DNA of 64,000 bases from Astropecten irregularis (taxonomy: Eukaryota; Echinodermata; Asteroidea; Paxillosida; Astropectinidae). This document shows, one piece after another, positions 41,205 to 64,000 of the stretch; positions within the stretch are counted from its first letter, which is position 1, and each line of letters starts with the position of its first letter. The notes beneath the pieces are model-generated. The model saw only the letters and a program-made list of their open reading frames with translations. It searched no databases and was not told the DNA's origin. Made by a program: the position numbers and the translations under genes. The stretch covers positions 15,768,931 to 15,832,930 of the forward strand of contig OZ020255.1 of the NCBI GenBank assembly GCA_963971285.1, written 5' to 3'.

Positions 41205-41264
41205 AGGTGAACAGAACTCCTCCAGGAACATGTATAAGCTCTTAAAGCATACAAGCTTTCATCT

Positions 41265-41510
41265 GGGGCCAATTTCATGTAGCTGTTAAGCACAAACAAA
41301 ATGGCTCAGCAAAAAATGTCTTGCTTAATAAATCAAACCGCCATTAAAAATTCCATTTGATATTCATGGTCAGCGAACAACAGCTAAAATACAATCACAA
41401 GCTATACACAACACATTGAAATTTGGCTGTTAATCCAGTTTTTATTAAGACAGAAATTTCATGGTAAGCATCATTTTTTTGTGGTAAGCAGGGCCGTGAA
41501 ATTGGCCCCC
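41265..41510. repeat. Family-2 fold-back, unit 1
   Basis: Ends GGGGCCAATTTCATGTAGCT and inverted GTGAAATTGGCCCC. It is carried within the 877-bp tandem duplication, so this copy predates the duplication. Confidence 0.75.
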
Positions 41511-42002
41511 GTCTTTCTTTTCCTGATTTGGAGTCAGGGACAGAAACTGCCTCAATCATTAAGTACGATTATAATGACCAACATGAAGAAGAATCTAGAA
41601 ACCATAGATGTTTACAGTATCCGGTAATTTGAGTTGGAGATATGTTATCAAGAAAAAACTTCCTGTGCCGGTTCCTGTCCACTCCCATGAGATAAATTAT
41701 ACACTGATACCATTTGTTTTAGTGAGAACCTATCCCATCAAAATTGGTATCAAGATTGTGTTTTATATTAAAATTCTTGCACTTGGAGGAAATTGCACGT
41801 TTTCTGAAAGCAAACAAATGTCTAGGGTAGGTTCGTTAAACTGTTATCTGAGAAGACGGAAGGTGGCTAGGTGACTTTGGCACCTGTTGGCATGGGTATC
41901 TCCAAGATATTGCAAATCAGGGCAGGGCCCATTTCCTTCTTAGTTTGCCGCTGAGCAGTTTTCATGATTAGCATTTATGCTTAGCATAAATGCTAAAACA
42001 GA

Positions 42003-42083
42003 GGCACCAATGCAGTCAGCAGAAACTGCCAATGATGATAAATCCCAGGATGTGTCTGCCTCCAACAACAAAACCACTTAAAT
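42003..42083 (+). pseudogene. Duplicated fragment of the small gene's last exon
   Basis: Reads the same frame as exon 2 of the gene at 40128 (SAETAND..KSQDVSASNNKTT then TAA) with a few substitutions. It lacks the first part of the exon and its splice acceptor. Predicted to be inert, or at most 3' UTR. Confidence 0.6.
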
Positions 42084-42141
42084 GTGAACAGAACTCCTCC
42101 AGGAACATGTATAAGCTCTTAAAGCATGCAAGCTTTCATCT

Positions 42142-42388
42142 GGGGCAAATTTTCATGGAGCTGTTAAGCACAAACAAAATTGCTTAGCAAAAAAATGTCG
42201 TGCACAATAAAACAAACTACCATTCAAAATTCCATTTGATATTCATGGTCAGCGAACAACAGCTAAAATACAATCACAAGCTATACACAACACATTGAAA
42301 TTTGGCTGTTAATCCAGTTTTTATTAAGACAGAATTTTCATGGTAAGCATAATTTTTTGTGCTAAGCAGGGTCGTGAAATTGGCCCCT
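42142..42388. repeat. Family-2 fold-back, unit 2
   Basis: The 877-bp-offset partner of the element at 41265, with small differences at both termini (GGGGCAAATTTTCATGG and GTGAAATTGGCCCC). Confidence 0.75.
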
Positions 42389-42894
42389 GTCTTTCTTTTT
42401 CTGATTTGGAGTCAGGGACAGAAACTGCCTCAATTATTAAGTACGATTATAATGACCACCATAAAGAAGAATCTAGAAACCAAAGATGTTTACAGATTCC
42501 GGTAATTTGAGTTGGAGATATGTTATCAAGGAAAAACTTCCTGTGCCGGTTCCTGTCCACTCCCATGAGATAAATTATACACTGATACCATTTGTTTTAG
42601 TGAGAACCTATCCCATCAAAATTGGTATCAAGATTGTGTTTTATATTAAAATTCTTGCACTTGGAGGAAATTGCACATTTCCTGAAAGCAAACAAATGTC
42701 TAGGGCAGGTTCGTTAAATTGTTATCTGAGAAGACGGAAGGTGGCTAGTTGACTTTGGCACCTGTTGGCATGGGTATCTCCAAGATATTGCAAATCAGGG
42801 CAGGGCCCATTTCCTTCTTAGTTTGCTGCTGAGCAGTTTTCATGATTAGCATTATGCTTAGCAAATGTCAATGAGAGCCAGAAAAGCATCTTTG

Positions 42895-43128
42895 GGCCTT
42901 TACGAAATGATGAGTCTTGAGGCTAGGCTTGGGATTTATTTGCTACCGCCATTTTGTGTCCAAAATGAAATGAAGGGCTTGGGATGGTGAAGCTGGAGCC
43001 TTTCTTTGGCTTTGTCATGCAGCCCAATCCCTTCATCTCATTTTGTGGGCTTTAAATGGTGGTACATGTATAACAAAATAAGTCCGAAGCCTAAAGCCAT
43101 AAGCCTGGTTTTATAAAGGTCCATAGCT
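42895..43128. repeat. Family-8 fold-back
   Basis: Left end GAGTCTTGAGGCTAGGCTTG with GCTACCGCCATTTTGTGTCC; right end GAAGCCTAAAGCCATAAGCC. Second copy of the element at 16785. Confidence 0.65.
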
Positions 43129-44586
43129 GCAGGGCTGAGCTTCCTAAACAAAGCTTTTGTGCTAAGCACAAAGTGTTTATAAGCACATGTCCCCCAGATC
43201 ATTCATTATTATCCAAGAAGCAGAGCTATATGTGACCATAGCTCCATATTGTGATCGACGGACATGTCTGTAGGCAAACTTCAAGGGTACCACTTCCTCC
43301 TAGGTAATACAGTTGGTTTCTCAGTAAGTGTCCATTTTTGGTTCTTTTCTTTCAGTTGTCCTTACTCCAATCATCTGAACATGGAGTTATCCTGTACATG
43401 TGGTTCATTCTTGGCATCATTTCAAGCAGGATGTGGTGTTGTTTATGCTGTTGACAACAGTCTTTTTATCTAGTTCATTTCTAGTAATTTATGATTTTGG
43501 AATCATTTAATGATTAACTGTTTTATTGATTTGTAGTTAAAACTTGTTTGAACAAGAAACTTAATCACAAGGGTTCCTGGTAGCATTAATTTAAATTTTT
43601 GTTTTCTTGAAAAATTTTGACTCCTTTGAGTCTATAAGCCACCCTAGGTATAAATGGGCTTCAGAATAAAGACACAAATTCAGGGAGACAAATGCAAATT
43701 TACATTTCCTTTAAAAACTCTCTTGACTGTCTGTTGAAAACTATTGAAATAACTCTTACAGTTCAAGAAAAATAGAAACTAAATATCATTGATTTAGTAC
43801 ATTTTGAAAAATTGTGGGTTTATTTTTATACTTTCCAAACATACAATTTAAGTCCTCTTTTTTTATTATATACAATAAAAACAAAACGATCGAACCACTA
43901 CCAGAATCGTTGAAATGAAAAAATTACTTTTTGATGACAGACAATGAGGAAATATTTTGAGAATAATAATTTCACAAATGTTAGAAATGTCATTTTCAAT
44001 AAGGCTAGAATACAGGTCAGGGTAATAGCGCCCTCGTGTGACTTAAAAAATTATCTTGGACGGAAACAGCTGGAATTTCTTTTTAGCATGGAATATTATT
44101 ATAATATGCAAAATCCAAGTCAACTATACAAAAATATTTTATACTGTACAAGCATTATATTAATTCTAATTAGTTTTTTGCAAATGCTTAAAGTTAGAAG
44201 GGCCTGACGCGTTTCGATCCTAGCAGGATCTTTCTCAAAGGCGAAAGGCTAGTTTTTTTGCAATGTACAAGTGAGACTTTAGAAAGTCTGCTTTTAAACT
44301 GAAATCAGTTGTGTGAATGTTTGTCTCTCTCCTTTGCTTTTTGGGGAAGTTTTCTCAAGTGATAGTGACAGGATATTATGAACAAAATGCCAATGACAAA
44401 TATTGTTAAGTAATTGCAGTACTCAAAATCAATTATTTTGCGAAGCTTAGAAAACTGATGAAGAACTCAAATGACCAGATAAGGTTTGATGAAACTTATA
44501 TTTCAAAATTCCTCTGGGAATTATTCACACACAACTGAAATAAAAATGTCTCTTTCACATGCAAAATAAATCTTAGGATGTACCTG
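43129..44586. other. Intergenic, little recognised
   Basis: AT-rich sequence with a GAAAC-motif repeat near the end. No exon is supported. Frames of 69-87 codons lack splice context. Confidence 0.45.
44191..44243 (-). repeat. GAAAC-motif repeat
   Basis: Minus-strand copy reading GCCTTTGAGAAAGATCC, loop TGCTA, GGATCGAAACGCGTCAGGCC. It is virtually identical to 6810-6864 over the whole motif although the flanks are unrelated. Confidence 0.65.
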
Positions 44587-45060
44587 AGGCAGATTTCACG
44601 AAGCACTAAGACTGAAGAATTAATTTTTATTGCTAAGCAAAGTGTGATGTCACATTACAAATTACTACGGTGATATTGACAGCTCATCTTAAAGGTAGTA
44701 TCATCCTTTGGTAAACCAAAACAGAAATCGTCATAGATTTGCCTATAACTTACAGGGTATAAAGATGGTGCTGGTAGAAACATACCGTTAAAATTGTTTC
44801 GCCTGAAATGGTGTATTTATCAAGAAATTAGTAATAAGCAACAACCCAAAATATTTTGATCTTTAAAAGATAAAAAAATAACGGTAAAAAGATTAAAGAA
44901 ATTCCTTTTTTCTCAAAAAGTTAGCATTGTATGGGACTGAGAATTTCACTGTATCTTTCTTGATATTTCTGCCCATGAATCTGTATTATTTCTTTGACAA
45001 AAACCAAAATAATGATATTACCTTTAAGATCAAATAGTGCTTTGTGAAATCGACCCCTGG
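44587..45060. mobile_element. Family-4 element interrupted by a family-3 insertion
   Basis: Outer family-4 halves are 44587-44698 and 45028-45060. Between them, 44699-45027 is a family-3 element with TTAA at both edges (44699-44702 and 45024-45027). Removing the insert and one TTAA restores CTCATCTTAAGATC, as expected for an empty family-4 site. Family 3 is therefore younger than this family-4 copy, and TTAA is its target. Confidence 0.8.
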
Positions 45061-45131
45061 ATATCTTACAACCCAAAGTTGAACCATTGATGTATTACGG
45101 CGGCGGTTGATGGATAACAATATTCCTTGAC

Positions 45132-45185
45132 TTAATTATTACTGACAGTCTTCCTGCAGTGATTGGCCATGAACTTCTCAACGTC
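45132..45185 (-). CDS. Alternative terminal exon fitting calaxin
   Basis: After a TTTTTAG acceptor the minus strand encodes DVEKFMANHCRKTVSNN and TAA in phase 0. The established last exon (55803-55865) encodes [20 protein letters not shown] in the same phase, so both can follow exon 5. The shared D-x-x-K-F-M start indicates that one exon was duplicated from the other. It lies about 4.3 kb beyond the usual last exon (copy-1 position 49439). Either an alternative 3' end that changes the last 17-20 residues, or a relic. No other calaxin exon is near it. Confidence 0.5.
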   Translation of the reverse strand, partial: DVEKFMANHCRKTVSNN

Positions 45186-45448
45186 CTAAAAATAAAAAAA
45201 AATAAAAGAGAAAAGAAGAAAAACAAGGAAATTAACATCACATTTTTTTCCAGAGCTGGAAAAAAATAGTCCTGTCCATGTTTCAGTGAACATCATGGTT
45301 TTTATCAACTGCAGCACGAACCATGGAGTTGGGGTTTTTTCACAGAAAGGCACTGATTTGGTTTTAGCAAACACTGCTAAATGAGACCGTATAATAAAAT
45401 ATAATGGTACACACTTGAGTTATATCACTCTCTGTATGAATGATATTT

Positions 45449-45686
45449 AGGGCGTTAACAAAATGGAAGCTTAGGCTCAGGCTCCAACTCTATTTCTTAC
45501 ATCCATTTTAAAGAAACAGATATACTAATAGAGGTTTTGGGGTATGGTTTCAAAGTACATACTCTGTTTCGAACAGGAAAATGCAACTTCAACCTCAGGG
45601 AAAATTCACAACCTGGATTTTCAGCTTTTAGATGACGGAGCCTTAGCCCAAGCCCAAGCCTAATCCATCGTTTTGTAAAGGGCCTT
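45449..45686. repeat. Family-1 fold-back
   Basis: Ends GGGCGTTAACAAAATGGAAG with AGGCTCAGGCTCC, and right end ATCGTTTTGTAAAGGGCC. More diverged than most copies. Confidence 0.7.
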
Positions 45687-46274
45687 AGTTTCAAACCTGT
45701 CACTGCAGTACATGTATTTGAATTTTGGTTTCAGCAGTAATGCCGTAAGCGGAAATCAGTCTGGTAAAAAAGATGAGTCACAAAACATTAATGGTCATTA
45801 ATATGCAACACTGTTGAGTCCACAACTTCTCATTAGAAAGTTAGAGGAACACAAGGTGTTAATTTACCATTGTTTTTAATCCAGCATTGTTTAGTTAATT
45901 AATCATATCCATGAGTAAGTAATGTGTTTAGCTCATATCTTGATTAAAACTTCAAACCAGAGCGAGAGTTTGTCAGCCTCAGTGATTTGTTCAGTGAAAT
46001 AATAAATACTGAACAATGTTTTAAACATTATTTGTTCCTTGCACCTCCACCTGGCCCTGACGAATGCATCTGTACCCCTGTTGGGAGTGTCAATGGACAC
46101 GTGTAAAACAGACAGGGGATAGAGATTAGAGTCTAATTAATTAAGATGACATCAGGTACATTACTGAGTGACTCTCAATGCATCATCAAGTAGGTCTCTA
46201 TTTATCATTGTAATAAAGTTGCCACCCATATTTCCTTCCAGGGCTTCAAGTCTGTAAAAGAATTTATGTTGGGA

Positions 46275-46452
46275 ACCATGGACCTTATCGAAGATAGCGC
46301 AAAACGGACCCAAACCGGGTATGCGCAAAGCATTCTAGGTGAAATTGTTGCTAGGGCGCAGCCTGAGTGATGAACAAATCCACAGGATTACCCACTGTCC
46401 TTTGCGTGCCCAAGCGTAGTGCCAAAAACTGGCTATCTTCGATAAGGTCCAT
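46275..46452. repeat. Fold-back element with 18-bp perfect ends
   Basis: GGACCTTATCGAAGATAG at the left and CTATCTTCGATAAGGTCC at the right are exact inverses, about 170 bp apart. Frames of 72 and 91 codons across it are by-products. Confidence 0.75.
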
Positions 46453-46636
46453 TGCTCACCCTGTTTCTGTCCCTTATATGGACACACAAACAACAACGAC
46501 ACAACAGCCATTTCATAAAGCACCAAATGCTGCTCCATTAAGTGTATTATCATGTTTTATGCACACAATTCATGCATTGCATACACAACCCTCTGTTATC
46601 CTGGTTAGCCTTGTTAATATTATGAGCAGGCTAAAC

Positions 46637-46815
46637 ATGTAGTTATAAACTGTATAAGCAAGACAATCCTTGCTTAGCATGTAGTTAACTGTATAAGCAA
46701 GGAAGTCCTTGCTAAGCATGTAGTTATAAAACTGTATGAGCAAGACAGTCCTTACTAAGCATGTAGTTAACTGTATACGTACCGTATACAGTTAACTACA
46801 TGCTTCAGTCCTTGC
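46637..46815. repeat. ~51-bp tandem array ending in a palindrome
   Basis: About three and a half units of AGCATGTAGTTAACTGTATA plus AGCAAG..AGTCCTTGCTA. The final unit is followed at TACGTACCGTA by an inverted partial unit, TACAGTTAACTACATGCTTC, so the array turns back on itself. Confidence 0.75.
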
Positions 46816-47467
46816 TACTCCAATTATCAATTGACACATTCCCACCACACAAGGGCGTTTATTGTCTGGATTAATTGTCCAGCCTTGCAATGTACTGGGG
46901 TAAGAGGTTATCGATCATCTGATACATTCAGGTAAAATTAGCGCAATTAAAATGACTGGTTAAGTTTTGGGCGTAAAAATCAAACTTCATCATGTTAAAC
47001 ATGTAACTTTATGACTTCCGATTATTACAGAAAATGTGTTGTTGATATATGTACCTTGAAATCAATTGTTATTGGTTTTTTGTTCATAATGAATTGTCAT
47101 TCGTATTATTTAATTTCATCTCTTATCCATAAAAAATCACTGAGTACAGATGCAAACATTAATTCACAGGGGCTGGGTTATGATGGAATGATCAGTACAG
47201 TTTACATTATTGTAAAATATAAATACTCTGTAAATAAATGGTGTGGATTTGGATGAATAAAGAAATATGAATCAGTTATGGGTTGATGGTAATTTTGACA
47301 AAGATGACATGTGTTGATCATGATAAATTGGTAATTACTGTCTTGATGAAATGAATATTTATGAAATACAGGACATCACATCTAACCTCCCACTATGGTT
47401 TTATAAACATATATGCATGTGCATCTTCAATACCAAATCTTTGTCGGAGGCTTACACCCATGGGGGA

Positions 47468-47592
47468 GTCAGGTTGGCGTAGCGGTTCTTTCCTCGCCTT
47501 TCACCTCTGACGGACCAGATTCAAGTCCGGCGCGGTCCACGGCGCAGTCAGTTATCCTTGTGGTTATTTCACTAATATATTTATTAAAAAGC
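47468..47592 (+). repeat. tRNA-headed SINE fragment, second family
   Basis: CAGGTTGGCGTAGCGGTTCT, CACCTCTGACGGACCAG and TTCAAGTCCGGCGC form the tRNA-like head. A tail TTATCCTTGTGGTTATTTCA resembles that of the first SINE family. The copy runs up to the start of the duplicated block. Confidence 0.6.
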
Positions 47593-47754
47593 CGTATCCT
47601 CTTTGAGTGATCCCCCATGTGCCGTTCCCAGGTTGCAGCATTGTTGCGTTTATCATTGAAACGATCCCTGGGGTGTGGTGGTGTGTGCGTGGTTTTATGG
47701 CTTCTGACTGCCAAACGAACAAAGATAGTTGACTATTGGGGTCACCACCAACGT

Positions 47755-47870
47755 AGGACTGGATGGCTCAGTTGGTAGAGCACCTGTACGGTATTCAGGA
47801 GGTCGGCGGTTCGAATCCCGCTCCAATAAATTTTTCTTTGTTCACTTTTCAATGAATAATAATAATAATA
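47755..47870 (+). repeat. tRNA-derived SINE (also at 54119)
   Basis: GGACTGGATGGCTCAGTTGG, GGTTCGAATCCCGCTCCAAT, tail TTTCTTTGTTCACTTTTCAA and an ATAATAATAATA end. The right-hand duplicate is at 54119-54234. Confidence 0.65.
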
Positions 47871-49114
47871 GTGAAATTTTGTATAGCGCCAACTCCAATG
47901 AAAAGGTTGTTCAAGACGCAGAATCTGCACAACGGAAGGTTGATTAGTATTGACCTTCTCGCTTATAATGAACCTAAATTATTACCACCATCAGAAGCCA
48001 TAATTCACCTTGATAAACACCTTAACTACATCCTGGAGCCTTCTCTTATGCACTTTTTGGCTATACTGTAAAGAGACCATCAGTCTTGTTTCAGTGTGAG
48101 GGACTGGTTTCTCCACCATAGGGGTGGAGGCATTCATTGCTGCCTTGATGTGGACTAAGAACATGTACCCCTTCCAGTCCTATTTGTACTGTTGGGAGAC
48201 TATAAATTATGGTATAATTATGTAACATATGCTGGGTAATCGTTATTGGTTTAGTTGAATGTTCAATAATAATGATGTTCATGATGCTGATATTTTTTAT
48301 CCGTATAAGCTGCAATGAAAGTGTGATTAAGTGTGATTTAGTCTTTAGTATGTTAGATGTCAAAGCATGTGTTATATTCTTATTATTATATTTTAGTTCT
48401 CATTCATGATTTTTTTTTCCTTTTTACAGTGTGCTTCAAAACGTATTTAGTATTGTGCATGTTTCTGCAGAAAAATATGATCTCATCCACCACAATGAAC
48501 ATGATGGTGGAAATGAGCCACGATATTATTGAAAATGGACTTAGTGACGGTCAGTTGCATAATGTTTGTGGTTTAGTGTTGGTCTGAGCAGAAGTCTAAT
48601 GATTCTGGCACAGTTTGGCTCTTGTGTAACGTACACATATGCAAGCTCTCATGGCATTGTACAGGCTGGGAAATTGAGAATGTCTGTTTTCAAAAACTTA
48701 TTATCAGTTCATACTTGTAGTTGTTCAGCAGAGGACATTCCGTTAATAAACCATCAATGCTGTATAATCCGTGTTCAGCAGAGCTTTTTGCATGCATTTC
48801 AAATTTCAAGATAGCATTTCGCCAATTGTTTATAAATACACCTTATGCCATGATACACCGAGATGGATTCCAGACCTCACATCAAGCTTATTAGACTTCA
48901 GCTTCATCATTAAACACGCGGCCATTATTTGAAGGAGGGAGGGGAGGGATGTGGCAATAGATCAGCTATGTTCAGCAAGTTGCTTAGCAGTTTTTATCAG
49001 GCCTTGCTTAATAGCAAGCACGGGTTACCAGTCAGAATATCATGCCTTGAGCACTGTTTGTGCCTGGTACTTTGGTGATATGTGCTAAGCATCTTGTTGC
49101 GATAAGCAGATCTA

Positions 49115-49350
49115 TGGCCCTTCTTAAAGCTTCTGCTTTAGCTCTGTCTCCGGCTCCATTTTGTCACTTTAATTTTTCAGTAACAGATGTCAGAATAGAG
49201 ACTTTTGGACTCAGTTTTGAAGTAGATAGGCCTACTCTCTTCTGAATATGATAACAGAGTTTCAAATTGTAAAAAAAAAATGCAACTGTTATTTTCAGGT
49301 TTAAGACAATGGAGACGACATCAGAGCCTGAGCTGAGGTTTCAGGAAGGT
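49115..49350. repeat. Family-1 fold-back (also at 55479)
   Basis: Left GGCCCTTCTTAAAGCTTCTG, right GAGCCTGAGCTGAGGTTTCA. The duplicate is at 55479-55714. A fragment of a family-2-like end (GTGCTAAGCATC, GATAAGCAGATCTATGG) abuts its left side. Confidence 0.7.
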
Positions 49351-49438
49351 TGTATGATTGTGACGAGGTTCATGTGAATTCCATTATTAATAAGAATTGA
49401 TGATCTTGTGGCACACTGACTGTTTTCTGTGTGGCTGG

Positions 49439-52400
49439 CTAGTAATATCTGTCTCTGTATGGTGGATACTCAGCAGCAGCTAACATGAACTTCTTGGCGT
49501 CCTGCGAAAGAAGGCTTCTCAATTATAAACCAGACAAGTTAACCCTTTCCTTAAAATCAGCTACTCACAGCTCCTCAAGTATTCTGTTCCACTGTCAAGT
49601 CACTATGAGAGCCTAAAACTCAGTTTGATATGAATACAACCTTAGAACAGCCATCATAATAATAACATCAGAGCATTTATAATGTGCACAGTATCTGGAA
49701 AGTTCCAATCAAAGCCACAGATTATTATTATCCCCTGGTCATTGGGCTACATTATTAAACATTCCTGAAACCATCTCAACTCCCTATGGGGAGTATACAG
49801 CCCTAGCTGCTGTATTCAGCGCAAAGGCTTATCAAACCACAAAGCCATCTCTACACAGGTACCCATTTACAACTGGGTGAAGAGGACCAATATGTTATAA
49901 AGCGTCTTGCCCAAGGACGTAAGCACCATTAACCCATGGCTGAATTTGAACCCACAATCTGTAGATTGACCACAAGACTTTGAGTTCAACATGCCAGACC
50001 ACTAGGCCACAGCACCCCACATAATTCATAGTATTTTGTTCCACTGTCAGGCCACTGTGAGAGCCTAAAACTCAGATTGATATGAATACAACCTTAGTAC
50101 AGCCATCATTTCTATTCTGATTGCCAAACCTTTCACTTTTCACTTTCGTTCCCTAATAGGGAGAAAGATTTTCACCGATCAATGTAGAACAGGTATATTT
50201 TCTCAGAGAGAGTTACAAGATTCTCATAACGAACAGGTAACCCCTGGGCCTTCTAGCCAGGAACCTTCCACAATCAGGGGCCATTTTCATAGAGCTGCTT
50301 AAGCACACACAAATTCTGCTTTAGCACGAAACATCTCACTTGATCAAACAGGATTATCAACCCAATGTTCATGTGATGTTTACTGCTTTTGACTTGTATT
50401 CGGCCATTGTTTGCAGAGCATAACATTCACAAGGAGTTTGGGCTGGCATACTTGTTTTTGGTGCTTAAGCAAATTTTGGTGCTTAAGCAGCCCTATGAAA
50501 TTTGCCTCAGGCATCACAATTTCAATATGTACATTCACAGAGGAAAAAACTCCCTAATCTTGTCCAAGACTCCTGAGGATTTTTGGTTTTCTCATCTCAA
50601 AGGAATTTTGAACAATTAATGACTGGTGAGATGAAAACCAATTTAATAAAGTTTTTTGGGTTCCTCTATCACGAAGAGGAAGAGAAAGCCACTGGCAAAA
50701 ATGTTCAAATCTAGGACAAATGCGTCTGAGGAACTTACTTGTGGCTCTGGCAGGCAGGATCCTAAATGCTCCAGACACAGAATATCCAGGTCAACAGCCT
50801 TGGAGAAGTCTTCACGGCTTACCTTATTATCTTTGTCGATATCCTGTGGAAGGCAAGAACAGTACAAAAGCTGTCAGTGTTAGACTACATTGAATCTGTT
50901 GTCTAGAGCTAGGTCTAGGTCTTACCTCCATTGGAAATATGCGGAGACATCAAGACAATAGATCTAGCTGTAGCTCCGGAAGCCCGTTTTGGACACGGCC
51001 TGAGATCAAGGAAGCATTGATTGCAACAGAGGCAGCTAACTGTAATGTCTAGGGATACATAAACATGATCCTAGTACATGGGAACCAAAGCTACAGTGGG
51101 GCAGGAACTAGACGAAGGCAGCAAAAGTGGTTGCTATCCTTGACGTTTCAAATGATCCAATACACATTTTAGTTTCTCTCGATAGTTCCACCACTTGCCT
51201 TGCCTTTTTGAGAACACCTGCACAAGTAAGCAAGAGGTCCTGAGTACGAATCCCACATAAGTCAGCACTGAGCAATGCACGCTATGCAGTGCTGATAATC
51301 GTCACTGAAGGGTAAGCCTAACTTGAACCTTTGGGCCTTTTCCAAACCTTGGGTCTGGCTCTGCCTTTGTCTCTGTCATCCATATGCTGAACATAATGGT
51401 TTTGGTTTTCCACTGAAGCTGAAGCTGTGTTTTCCTTCTCAAACCAGATAATCTACTTCCGAACCACAGCCAAAAGCCTGTATTGTGATACCCGTTATTC
51501 TAAAATGGATGCACAAGTTGGAGCAGGGGAGCCTGAGTCGGAGCCGAGGTTTGGAAAAGGCCCATGATCTACAATGTGTCATTTATTTACCAATTTCTTG
51601 ATGGCAATATCCACAAGATCCTTGATTCCTTCATCTGGATCTTCCTCTGTCTGTGGCTTGGCCATGCTGCTCTTCAGCAGGTTGAAGATTTCCTCTCTGG
51701 TAATATAACCATCATCATTCAGGTCGTACACTTTAAAACAAACTGCAAGAGCAAATAGAACATTTGAAGTTTGAAATCGTAAAAAAAGTCGGCCTATATC
51801 CTCTGACTTTCTGAAGAGCTCTGTTTTATTTAAAGATTTATCACAAATATCATTTTTCCCAAAAGAGGGTGCTTCAGCAATTCATTGTGGGATACATCTG
51901 GGTCGAACTGCAAGGTCAGGAACACAGTAAACAAAAAGAGTTTTACTCAGATTGTCAAAAAACTGGGGCTAATTTCATAGAGTGCATCAGAGGCACAAAG
52001 TTTGCTTTTAAAAGCAAAAGCATGCTTTTGACTTTTATTTGGCCATTGTTTGCTGAGCATAACATTCACAGGGAGTTTTGGCTGGTATACTGATTTCATT
52101 TACCAAGATTTTTGGTGCTTAAGCAAATTTTGGTGCTTAAGCAGCTCTATGACATTGGCCCCTGATCGTAAACACAAAATGATGTGCTTAAGAGGGGCAA
52201 TTACAACGGAGCTCCTCCACAGAGAAACTTGCAAAGTACAGCAAATTGCCTACAGAGCTTCAGTATTTCTGGAGATGATTAATCGCAGTAAACATTACTT
52301 ACACTGCTTCTGCTCTTCAGGTGTTCCCAGTAGAAATACAGACAGACCTTGCAGCCACTCGGACAGATTGACGTAGTTATCACTATCCAAGTCAAATACT

Positions 52401-53446
52401 CGAACAACTAGAAAAAGAAATTTGATCCTTTGTGAATTATTATTCTACATCTGCACTTAAGGGGAATGGATCTGGAGAGGCTACAGTTTTGATTAAGACC
52501 TTTCAAGTAACGTCTCATTAGAGAGCGATTCCAATCATAAATTTTAACGAACCTTGCCAAAATTTTGCCAAAAACCTGCACTAGTGTTGGCAGATTGTGA
52601 ACGAAACAACAGGACCAAAGAGCCAAGGCACTAAACCTTTTTGGAGGAGCACGGTGGTCAAACAGGGTCCAAGACCCAAGGAGGAAGGGGCATTCCTGAA
52701 GATCAGTCCACTCTGGTTAGCTGGTACCCAGCTTCTACAATAACTAACTCAAAATATGACTCTTCATCTGTTGGGTCTGGATACCAAATAACCAGAGTGG
52801 ACTTATCTCTAGGAATGCCTAGGAAGGCAACATAGGGACACTGTACGGTGTGGAATTTAGGGGCAGAATTAGGGTGGTTCCTCAGTAATATGAACAGGGA
52901 CACTCCATATAATCCCTTCATGAGTAAAGTGCCTCTCCCAAGAGAATTGTGAAATAAAAGCTAATTGTGCCCATTAAAGCACAATCCATCTAACCTTCCC
53001 TCTCCATCAGGGACCTTTCTCAAAGCTCGGCTCCGTCTCAGGCTCCGACTTCGTCTCTGTCATCCATATACTGAATACATGTATATAGGCTGTGGTTTTT
53101 CATTGAAGCTGAGGCTCTGTTCAAACCAGAGAATCTACTTCCAAACTGCAGCCAAAAGCCTCTATTTTGATACCCTTAATTTTAGAAAGGATTCACAAAA
53201 TGGAGCCGGAGCCAGAACCGGAGCCGAGCTTAGAGAAAGGCCCATGAACAACCTTTCTAGGAATCTCAATCAATGAACACTCATGAATATTCATACTTCT
53301 GTCTAGGATGATGTCATCTGTCACTCCAAACTTGATGTGTAGCTGCTCTCTGACCTGGGTGCGTTCAAGCTTGTCGGGTCTGACTGGGTTGGCCTTTCCT
53401 AGGCTCTTGAACATGTTTGTCAGGGACTCAATCTCCTCCTTGTTAA
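49439..53446 (-). CDS. EFCAB1: Calaxin, partial duplicate copy (exons 2-6)
   Basis: Exons on the minus strand: 53446-53297, 52407-52303, 51742-51591, 50843-50739 and 49501-49439. They match the corresponding exons of the copy at 55803-60598 in position, phase and sequence (offset 6,364). The first coding exon is missing because the block stops at the assembly gap. I regard this as the same gene seen twice and not a second locus; the complete model is described at 55803-60598. Confidence 0.85.
49575..50113 (-). repeat. tRNA-derived SINE between long direct repeats (also at 55939)
   Basis: Minus strand: tRNA-like head GTGGCCTAGTGGTCTGGCAT, B box GGTTCAAATTC, then GGGCAAGACGCTTTATAACA, a motif of many marine-invertebrate SINEs, and a body to 49,660. 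Outside lie two ~75-bp direct repeats (GAGCCTAAAACTCAG..TTGATATGAATACAACC) at 49,575-49,655 and 50,030-50,113. They are about 90% alike and too long for a normal target-site duplication. Calaxin intron 5. Confidence 0.65.
50277..50508. repeat. Family-2 fold-back (also at 56641)
   Basis: Left GGGGCCATTTTCATAGAGCT, right GCAGCCCTATGAAATTTGCC, inner GCTTAAGC motifs. Calaxin intron 5. The duplicate is at 56641-56872. Confidence 0.7.
51333..51563. repeat. Family-1 fold-back (also at 57697)
   Basis: Ends GGGCCTTTTCCAAACCTTGG and inverted GAGGTTTGGAAAAGGCCC. Calaxin intron 4, ending 28 bp from exon 4. The duplicate is at 57697-57927. Confidence 0.75.
51847..52163. repeat. Family-2 fold-back next to a GCAAATA-type element
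   Basis: The segment from 51847 (TCACAAATATCATTTTTCCC ... TGGGTCGAACTGCAAGGTCA) is a partial relative of the inverted element at 63460-63655. From 51965 a family-2 fold-back follows (GGGGCTAATTTCATAGAG to TATGACATTGGCCCC). Duplicates lie 6,364 bp to the right. Confidence 0.6.
52700..52810. repeat. Inverted-end element (GTTAGCTGGTACC; also at 59064)
   Basis: CCACTCTGGTTAGCTGGTAC at the left is inverted at the right as GGATACCAAATAACCAGAGTG. The middle contains CTCTTCATCTGTTGGGTCTG, shared with 62285-62360, and the left end is shared with the hairpin at 14236. Calaxin intron 2. Confidence 0.6.
53010..53243. repeat. Family-1 fold-back (also at 59374)
   Basis: Ends GGACCTTTCTCAAAGCTCGG and inverted CCGAGCTTAGAGAAAGGCCC. 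Calaxin intron 2, about 50 bp from exon 2. The duplicate is at 59374-59607. Confidence 0.75.
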
Positions 53447-53756
53447 CTGTTGGTTAGTTTTGGATTCAATGATTAGAAATTCAAATATCAATATATTGTC
53501 AAATAATAATATTGTTACAAATTTATGAACATTACGGACCCTAACATCGAACTAGGCCTACTCCGACTAGTTTTAGTGAATGACGGAAATACGGAATGCA
53601 AATGATTGTTAAGTTGGGGAATCCCCTGTTTTATCCAAAATAGGTCGACCTGTAAAACCTCAGCTCAGGCAATGTTCTCTTCACATGACACTAAATACGT
53701 TCCATTGCGCATACTGTTCATGTGCAGCTAGCCTACGATACAAACTAACGAAGCAG

Positions 53757-53956
53757 NNNNNNNNNNNNNNNNNNNNNNNNNNNNNNNNNNNNNNNNNNNN
53801 NNNNNNNNNNNNNNNNNNNNNNNNNNNNNNNNNNNNNNNNNNNNNNNNNNNNNNNNNNNNNNNNNNNNNNNNNNNNNNNNNNNNNNNNNNNNNNNNNNNN
53901 NNNNNNNNNNNNNNNNNNNNNNNNNNNNNNNNNNNNNNNNNNNNNNNNNNNNNNNN
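53757..53956. other. Assembly gap, 200 N
   Basis: Exactly 200 undetermined bases, a conventional placeholder length. The gap is bounded on both sides by the edges of the 6,164-bp duplicated block. Any reading frame crossing it is meaningless. Confidence 0.99.
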
Positions 53957-56900
53957 CGTATCCTCTTTGAGTGATCCCCCATGTGCCGTTCCCAGGTTGC
54001 AGCATTGTTGCGTTTATCATTGAAACGATCCCTGGGGTGTGGTGGTGTGTGCGTGGTTTTATGGCTTCTGACTGCCAAACGAACAAAGATAGTTGACTAT
54101 TGGGGTCACCACCAACGTAGGACTGGATGGCTCAGTTGGTAGAGCACCTGTACGGTATTCAGGAGGTCGGCGGTTCGAATCCCGCTCCAATAAATTTTTC
54201 TTTGTTCACTTTTCAATGAATAATAATAATAATAGTGAAATTTTGTATAGCGCCAACTCCAATGAAAAGGTTGTTCAAGACGCAGAATCTGCACAACGGA
54301 AGGTTGATTAGTATTGACCTTCTCGCTTATAATGAACCTAAATTATTACCACCATCAGAAGCCATAATTCACCTTGATAAACACCTTAACTACATCCTGG
54401 AGCCTTCTCTTATGCACTTTTTGGCTATACTGTAAAGAGACCATCAGTCTTGTTTCAGTGTGAGGGACTGGTTTCTCCACCATAGGGGTGGAGGCATTCA
54501 TTGCTGCCTTGATGTGGACTAAGAACATGTACCCCTTCCAGTCCTATTTGTACTGTTGGGAGACTATAAATTATGGTATAATTATGTAACATATGCTGGG
54601 TAATCGTTATTGGTTTAGTTGAATGTTCAATAATAATGATGTTCATGATGCTGATATTTTTTATCCGTATAAGCTGCAATGAAAGTGTGATTAAGTGTGA
54701 TTTAGTCTTTAGTATGTTAGATGTCAAAGCATGTGTTATATTCTTATTATTATATTTTAGTTCTCATTCATGATTTTTTTTTCCTTTTTACAGTGTGCTT
54801 CAAAACGTATTTAGTATTGTGCATGTTTCTGCAGAAAAATATGATCTCATCCACCACAATGAACATGATGGTGGAAATGAGCCACGATATTATTGAAAAT
54901 GGACTTAGTGACGGTCAGTTGCATAATGTTTGTGGTTTAGTGTTGGTCTGAGCAGAAGTCTAATGATTCTGGCACAGTTTGGCTCTTGTGTAACGTACAC
55001 ATATGCAAGCTCTCATGGCATTGTACAGGCTGGGAAATTGAGAATGTCTGTTTTCAAAAACTTATTATCAGTTCATACTTGTAGTTGTTCAGCAGAGGAC
55101 ATTCCGTTAATAAACCATCAATGCTGTATAATCCGTGTTCAGCAGAGCTTTTTGCATGCATTTCAAATTTCAAGATAGCATTTCGCCAATTGTTTATAAA
55201 TACACCTTATGCCATGATACACCGAGATGGATTCCAGACCTCACATCAAGCTTATTAGACTTCAGCTTCATCATTAAACACGCGGCCATTATTTGAAGGA
55301 GGGAGGGGAGGGATGTGGCAATAGATCAGCTATGTTCAGCAAGTTGCTTAGCAGTTTTTATCAGGCCTTGCTTAATAGCAAGCACGGGTTACCAGTCAGA
55401 ATATCATGCCTTGAGCACTGTTTGTGCCTGGTACTTTGGTGATATGTGCTAAGCATCTTGTTGCGATAAGCAGATCTATGGCCCTTCTTAAAGCTTCTGC
55501 TTTAGCTCTGTCTCCGGCTCCATTTTGTCACTTTAATTTTTCAGTAACAGATGTCAGAATAGAGACTTTTGGACTCAGTTTTGAAGTAGATAGGCCTACT
55601 CTCTTCTGAATATGATAACAGAGTTTCAAATTGTAAAAAAAAAATGCAACTGTTATTTTCAGGTTTAAGACAATGGAGACGACATCAGAGCCTGAGCTGA
55701 GGTTTCAGGAAGGTTGTATGATTGTGACGAGGTTCATGTGAATTCCATTATTAATAAGAATTGATGATCTTGTGGCACACTGACTGTTTTCTGTGTGGCT
55801 GGCTAGTAATATCTGTCTCTGTATGGTGGATACTCAGCAGCAGCTAACATGAACTTCTTGGCGTCCTGCGAAAGAAGGCTTCTCAATTATAAACCAGACA
55901 AGTTAACCCTTTCCTTAAAATCAGCTACTCACAGCTCCTCAAGTATTCTGTTCCACTGTCAAGTCACTATGAGAGCCTAAAACTCAGTTTGATATGAATA
56001 CAACCTTAGAACAGCCATCATAATAATAACATCAGAGCATTTATAATGTGCACAGTATCTGGAAAGTTCCAATCAAAGCCACAGATTATTATTATCCCCT
56101 GGTCATTGGGCTACATTATTAAACATTCCTGAAACCATCTCAACTCCCTATGGGGAGTATACAGCCCTAGCTGCTGTATTCAGCGCAAAGGCTTATCAAA
56201 CCACAAAGCCATCTCTACACAGGTACCCATTTACAACTGGGTGAAGAGGACCAATATGTTATAAAGCGTCTTGCCCAAGGACGTAAGCACCATTAACCCA
56301 TGGCTGAATTTGAACCCACAATCTGTAGATTGACCACAAGACTTTGAGTTCAACATGCCAGACCACTAGGCCACAGCACCCCACATAATTCATAGTATTT
56401 TGTTCCACTGTCAGGCCACTGTGAGAGCCTAAAACTCAGATTGATATGAATACAACCTTAGTACAGCCATCATTTCTATTCTGATTGCCAAACCTTTCAC
56501 TTTTCACTTTCGTTCCCTAATAGGGAGAAAGATTTTCACCGATCAATGTAGAACAGGTATATTTTCTCAGAGAGAGTTACAAGATTCTCATAACGAACAG
56601 GTAACCCCTGGGCCTTCTAGCCAGGAACCTTCCACAATCAGGGGCCATTTTCATAGAGCTGCTTAAGCACACACAAATTCTGCTTTAGCACGAAACATCT
56701 CACTTGATCAAACAGGATTATCAACCCAATGTTCATGTGATGTTTACTGCTTTTGACTTGTATTCGGCCATTGTTTGCAGAGCATAACATTCACAAGGAG
56801 TTTGGGCTGGCATACTTGTTTTTGGTGCTTAAGCAAATTTTGGTGCTTAAGCAGCCCTATGAAATTTGCCTCAGGCATCACAATTTCAATATGTACATTC

Positions 56901-59900
56901 ACAGAGGAAAAAACTCCCTAATCTTGTCCAAGACTCCTGAGGATTTTTGGTTTTCTCATCTCAAAGGAATTTTGAACAATTAATGACTGGTGAGATGAAA
57001 ACCAATTTAATAAAGTTTTTTGGGTTCCTCTATCACGAAGAGGAAGAGAAAGCCACTGGCAAAAATGTTCAAATCTAGGACAAATGCGTCTGAGGAACTT
57101 ACTTGTGGCTCTGGCAGGCAGGATCCTAAATGCTCCAGACACAGAATATCCAGGTCAACAGCCTTGGAGAAGTCTTCACGGCTTACCTTATTATCTTTGT
57201 CGATATCCTGTGGAAGGCAAGAACAGTACAAAAGCTGTCAGTGTTAGACTACATTGAATCTGTTGTCTAGAGCTAGGTCTAGGTCTTACCTCCATTGGAA
57301 ATATGCGGAGACATCAAGACAATAGATCTAGCTGTAGCTCCGGAAGCCCGTTTTGGACACGGCCTGAGATCAAGGAAGCATTGATTGCAACAGAGGCAGC
57401 TAACTGTAATGTCTAGGGATACATAAACATGATCCTAGTACATGGGAACCAAAGCTACAGTGGGGCAGGAACTAGACGAAGGCAGCAAAAGTGGTTGCTA
57501 TCCTTGACGTTTCAAATGATCCAATACACATTTTAGTTTCTCTCGATAGTTCCACCACTTGCCTTGCCTTTTTGAGAACACCTGCACAAGTAAGCAAGAG
57601 GTCCTGAGTACGAATCCCACATAAGTCAGCACTGAGCAATGCACGCTATGCAGTGCTGATAATCGTCACTGAAGGGTAAGCCTAACTTGAACCTTTGGGC
57701 CTTTTCCAAACCTTGGGTCTGGCTCTGCCTTTGTCTCTGTCATCCATATGCTGAACATAATGGTTTTGGTTTTCCACTGAAGCTGAAGCTGTGTTTTCCT
57801 TCTCAAACCAGATAATCTACTTCCGAACCACAGCCAAAAGCCTGTATTGTGATACCCGTTATTCTAAAATGGATGCACAAGTTGGAGCAGGGGAGCCTGA
57901 GTCGGAGCCGAGGTTTGGAAAAGGCCCATGATCTACAATGTGTCATTTATTTACCAATTTCTTGATGGCAATATCCACAAGATCCTTGATTCCTTCATCT
58001 GGATCTTCCTCTGTCTGTGGCTTGGCCATGCTGCTCTTCAGCAGGTTGAAGATTTCCTCTCTGGTAATATAACCATCATCATTCAGGTCGTACACTTTAA
58101 AACAAACTGCAAGAGCAAATAGAACATTTGAAGTTTGAAATCGTAAAAAAAGTCGGCCTATATCCTCTGACTTTCTGAAGAGCTCTGTTTTATTTAAAGA
58201 TTTATCACAAATATCATTTTTCCCAAAAGAGGGTGCTTCAGCAATTCATTGTGGGATACATCTGGGTCGAACTGCAAGGTCAGGAACACAGTAAACAAAA
58301 AGAGTTTTACTCAGATTGTCAAAAAACTGGGGCTAATTTCATAGAGTGCATCAGAGGCACAAAGTTTGCTTTTAAAAGCAAAAGCATGCTTTTGACTTTT
58401 ATTTGGCCATTGTTTGCTGAGCATAACATTCACAGGGAGTTTTGGCTGGTATACTGATTTCATTTACCAAGATTTTTGGTGCTTAAGCAAATTTTGGTGC
58501 TTAAGCAGCTCTATGACATTGGCCCCTGATCGTAAACACAAAATGATGTGCTTAAGAGGGGCAATTACAACGGAGCTCCTCCACAGAGAAACTTGCAAAG
58601 TACAGCAAATTGCCTACAGAGCTTCAGTATTTCTGGAGATGATTAATCGCAGTAAACATTACTTACACTGCTTCTGCTCTTCAGGTGTTCCCAGTAGAAA
58701 TACAGACAGACCTTGCAGCCACTCGGACAGATTGACGTAGTTATCACTATCCAAGTCAAATACTCGAACAACTAGAAAAAGAAATTTGATCCTTTGTGAA
58801 TTATTATTCTACATCTGCACTTAAGGGGAATGGATCTGGAGAGGCTACAGTTTTGATTAAGACCTTTCAAGTAACGTCTCATTAGAGAGCGATTCCAATC
58901 ATAAATTTTAACGAACCTTGCCAAAATTTTGCCAAAAACCTGCACTAGTGTTGGCAGATTGTGAACGAAACAACAGGACCAAAGAGCCAAGGCACTAAAC
59001 CTTTTTGGAGGAGCACGGTGGTCAAACAGGGTCCAAGACCCAAGGAGGAAGGGGCATTCCTGAAGATCAGTCCACTCTGGTTAGCTGGTACCCAGCTTCT
59101 ACAATAACTAACTCAAAATATGACTCTTCATCTGTTGGGTCTGGATACCAAATAACCAGAGTGGACTTATCTCTAGGAATGCCTAGGAAGGCAACATAGG
59201 GACACTGTACGGTGTGGAATTTAGGGGCAGAATTAGGGTGGTTCCTCAGTAATATGAACAGGGACACTCCATATAATCCCTTCATGAGTAAAGTGCCTCT
59301 CCCAAGAGAATTGTGAAATAAAAGCTAATTGTGCCCATTAAAGCACAATCCATCTAACCTTCCCTCTCCATCAGGGACCTTTCTCAAAGCTCGGCTCCGT
59401 CTCAGGCTCCGACTTCGTCTCTGTCATCCATATACTGAATACATGTATATAGGCTGTGGTTTTTCATTGAAGCTGAGGCTCTGTTCAAACCAGAGAATCT
59501 ACTTCCAAACTGCAGCCAAAAGCCTCTATTTTGATACCCTTAATTTTAGAAAGGATTCACAAAATGGAGCCGGAGCCAGAACCGGAGCCGAGCTTAGAGA
59601 AAGGCCCATGAACAACCTTTCTAGGAATCTCAATCAATGAACACTCATGAATATTCATACTTCTGTCTAGGATGATGTCATCTGTCACTCCAAACTTGAT
59701 GTGTAGCTGCTCTCTGACCTGGGTGCGTTCAAGCTTGTCGGGTCTGACTGGGTTGGCCTTTCCTAGGCTCTTGAACATGTTTGTCAGGGACTCAATCTCC
59801 TCCTTGTTAACTGTTGGTTAGTTTTGGATTCAATGATTAGAAATTCAAATATCAATATATTGTCAAATAATAATATTGTTACAAATTTATGAACATTACG

Positions 59901-60120
59901 GACCCTAACATCGAACTAGGCCTACTCCGACTAGTTTTAGTGAATGACGGAAATACGGAATGCAAATGATTGTTAAGTTGGGGAATCCCCTGTTTTATCC
60001 AAAATAGGTCGACCTGTAAAACCTCAGCTCAGGCAATGTTCTCTTCACATGACACTAAATACGTTCCATTGCGCATACTGTTCATGTGCAGCTAGCCTAC
60101 GATACAAACTAACGAAGCAG
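53957..60120. repeat. Right copy of 6,164-bp duplicated block
   Basis: Equivalent of 47593-53756. Beyond 60120 the sequence is unique and supplies calaxin exon 1. The two copies together account for one locus: the left contig carries the 3' flank and the right contig the 5' end. Confidence 0.93.
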
Positions 60121-60598
60121 GATGCCAGGCCCAGGAGGCAGGAGTCCCGAACTTTACAATCCCCTTGCCCTTGGCCCTGGCCTTGCCTTGCCCTTCTTGC
60201 CTTGGCCATGCAAATCACAATGATAAACCTTTTACTTAACGATAAATGTGCCTCAAAGTGAAATACATTCTTTTTGCGAAATAAATTCACAATTTTCTAT
60301 CATTTTTCTCCTTTGGGATCTTCACTAAGAAGAAAATGCTAATTATATCACAACTGGTCAAGGTTAGACCCAGTAACTGGGGCGCTGAACTCCCTTTTTG
60401 ACTTTTGGGGTTGACGGTCGGTCTAGCGCCCCAGTTACTGGGTCTAGGTCAAGGTAATGAACAGTGGGCTAACAAGAGTTTCAACAAATTTTTCGGTCCA
60501 TCGAAAACTTTCTTTGATGATGTTTCACCATTACATATCCTCATTCAAAAGTCAAGGTACACTAAGAAAGACTACTTACAATGCAACTGGGGAGCCAT
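55803..60598 (-). CDS. EFCAB1: Calaxin (EF-hand calcium-binding protein 1)
   Basis: Calcium sensor of motile cilia and sperm flagella that acts on outer-arm dynein (established for the family). Minus-strand exons: 60598-60580, 59810-59661, 58771-58667, 58106-57955, 57207-57103 and 55865-55803. They join to 594 nt, 197 aa, against about 211 in human. All splice sites are GT-AG and phases agree. Family matches include [11 protein letters not shown] (human FGMTDDMIMDR), [18 protein letters not shown] and CLPEPQ. EF-hand loops are [12 protein letters not shown] (62-73), [12 protein letters not shown] (98-109) and [12 protein letters not shown] (143-154). The first two end in Glu, the third in Asp as in human. 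Exon 1 (MAPQLH) is the weakest part: the frame stays open upstream and the N-terminus is about 14 residues shorter than human. The divergent neighbour starts 431 bp away. A second possible last exon is at 45132. Confidence 0.92.
60140..60215. repeat. CCTTGCC-rich low-complexity tract
   Basis: Pyrimidine-rich stretch of CCTTGCC/CCTTGGCC words in calaxin intron 1. It produces a Gly-Gln repeat (GQGQGQGQ) in a minus-strand frame that I reject as coding. Confidence 0.6.
60365..60446. repeat. Hairpin with ~20-bp arms
   Basis: GACCCAGTAACTGGGGCGCT and its inverse AGCGCCCCAGTTACTGGGTC flank about 40 bp. Short fold-back in calaxin intron 1. Confidence 0.75.
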
Positions 60599-61029
60599 TT
60601 TGATGTGTTTGCCAAGCTTAATTAACGAAGGTAAAACAATATGGACTTTGCCCAATTAAGAGCTAAACAACTCTCTACATAAAACCTGCGTCCCTGTCGC
60701 TAGGCCTACGAAAACATCGCATATAGCTGGTTCCCATGACACATCCTCATATGTATTTGATGACATGACCGAGTACCAGTGCGCACTAAAAGGGTGCGTT
60801 CGTCTAGCCTTACCGGGTTAGTCCTGACCTTTGTGTGGTTACCTAAATACTGCACAAACCAAGCAAGACGGCGCTGACTGGGTTGACTGGTATCGACTCG
60901 TGGTAGGTAAACGAACGCACCCCATGATCTGGTTCCCGTCTACTTCGACTATTGTATTTTGTACAGGGCGGTGTACAGACGATTCATTTGGTCAAAAAGC
61001 CCTGGGAATGAGGTTGTCAAATCGACATC
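60599..61029. promoter_or_regulatory. Bidirectional promoter region, calaxin and polylysine gene
   Basis: Only 431 bp separate the two divergent start codons. No TATA box is evident and CpG dinucleotides are commoner than in the flanks. The plus-strand start codon lies in CATCATGGCGGCC, which resembles a YY1-type initiator. A GGTGCGTTCG word (60794) recurs inverted as CGAACGCACC (60911). Shared regulation is inferred. Confidence 0.45.
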
Positions 61030-63388
61030 ATGGCGGCCGAGGAAAAGGAACATTTGCACACTAATTCCTGCAACAGTGAATTAAAAATTCCAGTTACAGG
61101 AAGCGAAAAGGGTGGAGATGCCGCTTCAATGAAGGAGTAAGTCTCTCCCCTTCTGTACAAAAAACAATGAACTTTGTGTCGGTTTCTCTGGCGCCATGAT
61201 TAACCATGAAAATTCGGGAATATAAAAAAAAAGGAATGGCCTGACGATTGTGCTAATTTGGGGGCGAGTTTCATTAGGTATCTCTTGTGTACAACACTTA
61301 CCCCGCCCCACGTGCGTTGCATATTTTTTAAATGTCCAAATTTCGGGGATTGTGGGTTGACGGGTCCTAAAACTATAAAGGAAAGGAAACTACTTTTTGA
61401 AAAGTAACTTACCTACATATACTTTGTTGGTCTCCTCCTCTATATTACCAAGGTTAATTTTTTGGAAAGAGGGCACACAGCGAAAAATTCCCCATATGCA
61501 CTGTAACACGGATGGAAACAGTGCCGTGTGTAAAAAGCGCCGCGCTGATTGGTCAACGCGCGAGGCCGTGCTCGTGACGTCACGGAAACCATGTGCTGGC
61601 CCAACTCGTTACGCACGCACGCAGGGCCGTTGCAGACACGTACGGGGCACGCATTACGCGATGTGCCTATTCAAACACACGCGGTGTACGACTACGCAAC
61701 GATCAACAGTCGGCCGTACGACATCTCCGGATGACCATGCAATTCTATGCATATTCATGTGGCGCTCTCAGCATACACAACCAATAGACCCAACACATGT
61801 TATATGAATATTCAACGACCCAACAATCACACTCAGACGGTGGCGCGGTTTCGCGGTAAAATGACAACAAAAATACAGCTCACCAAAGTTCAAATACGAT
61901 CGCGATGTCCGTGAGTTCTCGAACGTCGGGTGACACCACCAAAAATGGTCAAAAGGTCGAAGAAATGTACAAATTTGTATGTTTTTGGTACCATTCGAAA
62001 GATCGTGGCGAGGTCTGTCGAAGTAACTATGGTTAGAGTGGGCATCGCTGAGTATGTGCCCATGCGCGTGAGTTTCATTCATGAAAACTTCCATTTTTGG
62101 TCAGTGCGATGACGTCACATAATGAGATGATCGTGACGCCCTCTTGCGACCGTTTCGTGCCAATTCGTGTAAGGGATTTTTCGCTGTGGGGCAGGGCTAT
62201 GAAATGATGATTTTTGAGGGAAATTATGGGGTAAAAACGGTAACCAAGATTGTAACATTTCACCGTCGCATGGACGGCCGCAGACGAGAATAGTCTGGTT
62301 TCCACTCTGACATTTTGAGGACTCTTGATCTGTTGGGTCTGGGCACTAGACTAACCAGACCAGACAAAATGGCCTCATGCGATCAGATGGTCTGTTTTAA
62401 AGTTTGCAAGAAGCGCGTAAGAAAATTTAATTTTAACCCTGAAATGTTTAACAAATTTCTTCAATCTAGGCTTTTATTAAGGACCCAGGAACATTTGCTG
62501 AAAGTCAAAAGTATCATTTTTGAGGAGTAGAAGTTAGTTCAGAGCCAAAAAAATCAATGTGTTTTGGGATCCCGTCAACCCACAATCGCCCAAATTTCTT
62601 ATCTGTCCTGCAAATGATATCTTCTAACAATGAAGGACTTACCTCCACTTTTCTACACAAATACAAAGGAATTTTAAGATTTATTAATTTGCTCTTTGAG
62701 AAAATAAGGAATAAGTTTTTATGTTTTTTTTTTATTTAGCCTAAATTAAAATTTTAAATTGAGGATTAACGTTAGATTTTGGTTATTAACAATATAAATA
62801 GGGGGCCTAATTACTAATTACGTAGGGTTGGATGGCTCAGTTGGTAGAGCGCGCCTGTACGGTATTCAGGAGGTCGCTGGTTCGAATCCTGCTCCACTCC
62901 GGTCAATTTTTCATTGTTCACTTTTCAATGACATTAAATTCAGTCAGTTTCCCTTGTGGTTATTTGATGATTATACTAATGTAGTAATTAACGTTAGATC
63001 TTGGGAAGTTTTCCACTGACAGATACCACTTGACACTTTGTGCACAAACCCTATGGGACTGAACTGGTATGCACTCCTTCCTTGTAAGTTACAAGTTGTA
63101 ACTTGTAAGGAGCGGTGCTTCTTAATTATTTTCATTATTGTTGTGTATCTTGTTTCCACCAGTTTGCCAAATCATGCAATAAAAGCCAACAGCACAGCAA
63201 CCACTAACGGTGATGAGAATGATGGTGCTTCAACCTCTGGCTCAAAGGCCACGCCCTCAGCCATCGCCGGAAGTGGTGCCGTTCCAAAGGACAAGAAGAA
63301 AAAAAAGAAGAAGAAGAAAGACAAAGCAGCAGAGGAGAATGAAAAGGAACAAGGCGCTCAAGTTTCAAATAATGCATCTGAGTTGAAG
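61030..63388 (+). CDS. N-terminal exons of a polylysine-block protein (NMT- or MetAP2-like)
   Basis: Two exons are visible: 61030-61136 and 63163-63388, joined in phase 2. The gene continues past the window. The 111 residues start MAAEEKEHLHTNSC, pass through an Asn/Ser/Thr-rich stretch, and reach PKDKKKKKKKKKDKAAEEN at about residues 77-95. Such an acidic/polar leader with one long lysine block is typical of metazoan N-myristoyltransferase (KKKKKKQKKKK) and of methionine aminopeptidase 2. In both it is thought to aid ribosome association. No catalytic part is in view, so the choice cannot be made. Donors are GA|GTAAGT and AAG|GTGAAA; the acceptor is TTTCCACCAG. The 2-kb intron holds nested inverted elements and a SINE. 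The exon-1 end is related to that of the gene at 40128. Confidence 0.6.
61336..62597. mobile_element. Nested inverted-repeat elements in intron 1
   Basis: Outer arms: CCAAATTTCGGGGATTGTGG..TTGACGGG (61336-61364) and the inverse CCCGTCAACCCACAATCGCC..AAATTT (62571-62597). Inside, CACACAGCGAAAAATTCCCC (61473) and its inverse GGGATTTTTCGCTGTGGGG (62173-62191) bound a 720-bp CpG-rich segment. Further right, 62285-62360 is a relative of the 52700 element. No coding frame is supported. The segment 61,540-61,730 is much richer in CG than the surroundings. Confidence 0.7.
62822..62975 (+). repeat. tRNA-derived SINE copy
   Basis: TAGGGTTGGATGGCTCAGTT, GGTAGAGCGCGCCTGTACGG, GGTTCGAATCCTGCTCC, tail TTTTTCATTGTTCACTTTTC and CAGTTTCCCTTGTGGTTATT. 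It is one of the more complete members of the family. Confidence 0.7.
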
Positions 63389-63459
63389 GTGAAAATTAAC
63401 TTTACACCTTTCATTTTTAATAACTCATATTGAACTGTGTAAATCAATCTTTCCACAAG

Positions 63460-63656
63460 GTGTATCGCAAATAGCATTTTCACCAAGAGAGGGCGCTTCC
63501 ACAAAGCATTGTTGGATGCATCTGGGTCGAACTGCAAGTTCATGTGAAAGTCTGCAAAGAGAATTTCACTCAGACTGACCAAAAGTAAGCAGGTGGTGGC
63601 GCCCTTTCGACCCTTGTGCATCCCACAACTCCCAGCTGTCACTATTTGCGATATGG
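63460..63656. repeat. Inverted-end element (ATCGCAAATAG)
   Basis: Left TATCGCAAATAGCATTTTCA and GAGAGGGCGCTTCCACAAAG; right GGTGGCGCCCTTTCGACC and CACTATTTGCGATATGG. A partial relative is at 51847. It lies in the intron following exon 2 of the polylysine gene. Confidence 0.7.
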
Positions 63657-63830
63657 TCTATAATTTAGTCTTTGTTTATACGGGTTGCACAGAAAGTTAC
63701 ATATTTTAGGAGGAGGGGGACTTTAAGTCTTCTAACTCAAACTAAATCCTGAAACCATCTTTAATAACTCTACTGTACAATATTCTTACTTGCCTTCAAA
63801 ATGTTAATGGCTGGGCTTCTTCCTATCCGC

Positions 63831-64000
63831 AGGGTCCTTTCCCAAAGCTCTGCTCCGGCTCAGGCTCCAGCTTTGTCTCTGTCATCCATAAACTGAAAAC
63901 ATAGGTTGTGGTTTTCATGGAAGCTGAAGCTCTGTGTCCTTTATAAACCAGAGAATCTTCTTCCAAACTGTAGCCAAAAGTCTCTATTTTGATACCCGTT
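63831..64000. repeat. Family-1 fold-back, cut by window end
   Basis: Begins AGGGTCCTTTCCCAAAGCTC with CTCCGGCTCAGGCTCC and runs through GTCTCTATTTTGATACCCGT. The right arm lies beyond the window. Confidence 0.75.

Follow-up and report, generated by a model that had tools for sequence, protein, structure and literature searches.

An identical 6,164-bp block on both sides of a 200-N gap in Astropecten irregularis, very probably a false duplication of overlapping contig ends

We analysed a window of 64,000 nucleotides of Astropecten irregularis DNA (assembly GCA_963971285.1, contig OZ020255.1, positions 15,768,931 to 15,832,930 of the forward strand), in which a block of 6,164 bp stands twice, once on each side of an assembly gap. 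With a probability of about 95%, we regard this pair as a homotype false duplication caused by an overlap of contig ends, that is, as an assembly artefact and not a biological feature. An earlier note on the same stretch, made from its letters, had proposed a false tandem duplication from overlapping contig ends across a fixed-size gap; this proposal agrees with the sequence and lies close to a class of error described in the literature, and the sequence supports an ordinary, already known kind of assembly error as the explanation of the block. Three observations underlie this reading: the copies are identical, each of them runs right up to the gap, and the gap is a single one with a round number of N.

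The left copy (47593-53756), which we read as the right-hand end of a left contig, and the right copy (53957-60120), which we read as the left-hand end of a right contig, agree at 6,164 of 6,164 positions in the same orientation when compared base by base. Between them lies a placeholder gap of 200 N (53757-53956), the only run of N in the window, which each copy adjoins directly, one per side; none of these three features has a strand. A direct junction of the two copies would read ACGAAGCAG|CGTATCCTC. The identity ends at once outside the pair, with 0 bp of extension at the outer left and 0 bp at the outer right, as mismatch begins at 47592 for the left copy and at 60121 for the right copy. 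The coordinates given in the earlier note, for 6,164-bp copies flanking and abutting a 200-N gap, are exact to the base, and the self-alignment of the copies that it called for gave 6,164/6,164 identical positions, with blastn reporting 100.000% identity and 0 gaps. Its statement that all encoded frames compared were identical is likewise true, because the DNA itself is identical.

When the window was compared with itself by blastn (both strands, E up to 1e-10, matches longer than 60 bp), this pair came first (100.000%, 0 gaps), and all other pairs among the matches listed were 68-97% identical, dispersed repeats being plentiful in the window. Once the block was masked, no 150-mer was present twice on the same strand in the window (56 100-mers were), which rules out a chance match of the 6,164-bp copies; no 40-mer occurs twice within one block copy. 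Taken whole, the block matches nothing else in the window, and the smaller repeats inside it, of which one is tRNA-like, match elsewhere at lower identity. A perfect 6.2-kb pair that flanks the only gap is thus different in kind from the other repeats of the window. The largest tandem pair besides the block (41115-41986 and 41995-42863, about 870 bp each) shows 95.0% identity and has no N run in between; in contrast to the block, it resembles a tandem duplication of the ordinary, older kind, and part of its unit has related copies at 33697-33944 and 37228-37466. Three other sources of the block were considered and rejected: a tandem duplication of old date, haplotypes that had been retained, and copies of a transposable element.

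Several smaller repeats were also noted. Arrays with a 16-bp unit (about CAACTCGTACGCCAAC) lie in opposite orientation at 12085-12227 and 12651-12836, their longest arm pair being 108 nt, 94% complementary and 426 nt apart; their arrangement suggests an element of the foldback type whose arms are tandem repeats. Short tandem arrays occur at 26524-26790 (unit about 92 bp, 2.9 copies) and at 46630-46777 (unit 39-43 bp, 3.4-3.6 copies). Five tRNA matches above the Rfam gathering score (28550-28623, 62826-62900, 1082-1155 on the minus strand, 47757-47829 and 54121-54193) also match one another as dispersed repeats and are probably tRNA-derived SINEs; ARAGORN calls only 62825-62901, as tRNA-Thr. 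The match at 47757-47829 is counted a second time at 54121-54193 because it lies inside the block.

The absence of any difference between the copies bears on their age and origin. At a divergence of 5e-4 the probability of zero differences in the block is 0.046, and at 0.5% it is 4e-14, which makes diverged alleles or older paralogues an unlikely source of the pair. One way to obtain two adjacent copies of a locus is a heterotype false duplication, in which the two parental haplotypes are set side by side. This error, too, is common and puts a gap between the copies (Rhie et al. 2021, PMC8081667; Ko et al. 2022, PMC9516828). It could go unnoticed where the genome is locally homozygous, yet two haplotypes should differ, and the copies carry 0 differences in 6,164 bp and hence no haplotype-specific variants by which this error is recognized. 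At a heterozygosity of 1%, an assumed value that may not be that of this organism, about 62 differences would be expected and the probability of none is 1.7e-27. We therefore hold this the least probable of the readings weighed here, with hardly any probability left to it. Three features of a homotype false duplication, on the other hand, are present in the letters, namely two copies on the same scaffold split by a gap, copies that reach this gap on both sides, and haplotype differences at 0 of 6,164 positions. Such a duplication is expected to be about as long as one sequence read, and 6,164 bp would be a plausible length if the reads were long ones.

In the homotype reading, the left contig would end at 53756 and the right contig would start at 53957, their true relation being an overlap of 6,164 bp, i.e. 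a negative gap. The assembler would have kept the two overlapping contigs separate, most likely because the overlap graph branched there, and the scaffolder would have ordered them correctly but without an overlap test, writing a fixed placeholder of 200 N, so that the overlap was printed twice. Contigs overlapping by 6,164 bp, together with a placeholder, would leave two identical copies that each reach the gap and do not match beyond their outer ends, and this is the pattern observed. The overlap in the assembly graph and the roles of an assembler and a scaffolder in the error are inferred. The default gap of YaHS is 200 N. One assembly made with hifiasm and YaHS is documented to mark its gaps by 200 Ns.

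A real duplication has to be weighed against this mechanism. The earlier note had argued that both ends of a biological duplication would not coincide with the gap; this is a strong argument but not an absolute one, since a real and perfectly identical tandem pair would look no different if the assembler had broken precisely where its two units meet. The event required would be a very recent 6,164-bp tandem duplication in the sequenced individual, with zero divergence and with an assembly break at its junction; it would have left a 5'-truncated calaxin gene on the left beside an intact one. Identity of 100% is possible for such a pair if its divergence lies below about 5e-4, and contigs tend to break at repeats; long reads, however, are as a rule longer than 6 kb and would span a single unit. 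Zero divergence would moreover have to coincide with a break at one exact base, and the other large tandem pair of the window has diverged by 5%. The two ends of the block share no base, and 1-kb flanks compared with the block gave no blastn match (E 1e-3), so no obvious repeat mediated a duplication. Taken together, we consider a real duplication very improbable, if a shade less so than side-by-side haplotypes.

The block carries part of a gene for calaxin (EFCAB1), which the literature describes as a calcium sensor that is associated with the outer-arm dynein of cilia. Five consecutive exons lie on the minus strand in each copy, the coordinates on the left being those on the right minus 6,364. 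In the right copy these are exon 2 (59661-59810; acceptor caacag, donor gtatga), which falls within the calaxin match of the joined exons, exon 3 (58667-58771; ttctag, gtaagt), exon 4 (57955-58106; ttgcag, gtaaat), exon 5 (57103-57207; ccacag, gtaagt) and a probable last exon (55803-55865), which joins in phase 0 behind the acceptor ttcgcag and encodes 20 residues followed by a stop. Exons 4 and 5 each hold a 12-residue EF-hand loop, and exon 4 belongs to the Pfam EF-hand match of the joined exons. All five acceptors end in AG, all four donors begin with GT, and the joined frame is open to the stop. What would be a spurious second listing of the same letters, also on the minus strand, stands in the left copy at 53297-53446 (exon 2), 52303-52407 (exon 3), 51591-51742 (exon 4), 50739-50843 (exon 5) and 49439-49501 (probable last exon). 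Neither in coding sequence nor in splice sites do the two copies differ at any of the five exons, and the exons of the left copy, which a duplication would have cut off from its upstream sequence, are without decay.

Judged by its best match among solved proteins, which is calaxin, and by its EF-hands, the gene is calaxin. The top PDB match of a provisional exon join was calaxin 5x9a (E 1.2e-46), the corrected join is identical to human calaxin at 85 of 177 aligned residues (48%), and Pfam returned five families on the joined exons at E up to 0.001, all of them EF-hand models.

The ends of this gene had been used as an argument in the earlier note, which placed calaxin exon 1 only to the right of the block, and the sequence toward an alternative last exon only to its left, as expected of two ends of one locus. 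We scanned the minus strand of 59811-64000 for exons that start with ATG, span 12-60 codons and end in phase 1 at a GT, and the best candidate scored 26, against 27, 28, 21, 24, 30 and 31 in six control regions of similar size and 11 in a smaller seventh one of 310 bp, so that none was distinguished. A second scan of the same interval, for a donor-like site and with no ATG required, gave a best score of 21 against 23, 25, 26, 21 and 19 in five control regions. The N-terminal exon of human calaxin starts MNRKKLQKL..., and the candidates for the block gene in 59811-64000 do not exceed control regions; exon 1 therefore either has diverged too far, or is too short, or lies outside the window, and its placement to the right was not confirmed. 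On the left side, the best terminal-exon candidates scored 19 (43000-47592) and 21 (35000-43000), compared with 22 and 20 in two other regions and 15 in a stretch inside the block, these regions being of unequal size; no candidate in the scanned part, 35000-47592, thus rises above control level.

Inside the block, the segment 55803-55865 (49439-49501 in the left copy) is probably the last exon of calaxin, although it is the least certain of the five exons. It scored 12, ranking 7 of 9 in its stretch, is weakly similar to known calaxin C-termini, and is preferred because of its acceptor, its phase and its place after exon 5, not because of its score. An alternative last exon may lie left of the block, but the claim gains no support here, as a plausible last exon lies within the block and 35000-47592 holds no distinguished candidate. 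With candidates for exon 1 and for a left terminal exon only at control level, and with a plausible last exon in the block, the argument from gene anatomy is neutral and should be given no weight.

Other coding signals were noted at either end of the window. An open frame of 334 aa at 4457-5458 matches the Pfam cytochrome P450 profile over positions 1-274 of 462 (E 1.3e-38). A 137-aa frame at 63020-63430 on the plus strand, with a lysine-rich stretch (KDKKKKKKKKKDKAAEENEKEQ), may hold the exon of a gene; its sole Pfam match is New_glue, at 19.3 bits and thus under the family cut-off of 31.

If the artefact reading is true, the assembly carries 6,364 surplus bases here (6,164 + 200) and a spurious partial calaxin, and the second partial copy of the gene is probably not real. 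An annotation pipeline may report this partial calaxin as a second gene, and ciliary gene copies or recent segmental duplications counted in the assembly would come out too high. Other gaps of the assembly may show the same kind of error, provided that the scaffolder skipped a test for contig-end overlap. The block itself would have no biological meaning and be a local matter of data quality.

The block can be set beside known systems at two levels, that of the gene and that of the error. The gene is the same as that of the calaxin/EFCAB1 chains 8j07, 7rro, 9cpc and 5x9a in the PDB, and differs from known calaxin in a poorly conserved probable last exon and in an exon 1 that was not found in 59811-64000. 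With regard to the error, the duplicated overlapping contigs (DOCs) named by Kelley & Salzberg 2010 (PMC2864568) are, in their description, likewise neighbouring contigs that overlap at their ends and stay unmerged; they attributed DOCs to heterozygous sequence, whereas the overlap in the block is 100% identical. Ko et al. 2022 (PMC9516828) quantified false duplications and the false gene gains that duplication errors cause, and their cases, as presented there, resemble the block in that part of a gene is duplicated beside itself across an assembly gap. Those cases are backed by reads, whereas the block is known from sequence alone, and the homotype class as they characterize it stems mainly from sequencing errors and very low depth, a different sub-type from the block. 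The closest counterpart is the homotype false duplication at contig boundaries described by Rhie et al. 2021 (PMC8081667), which shares with the block a locus written twice, the position at contig ends, the tandem arrangement and the gap between the copies; the length of the block would be plausible for a long read, and none of the features tested here differs from the class as those authors set it out.
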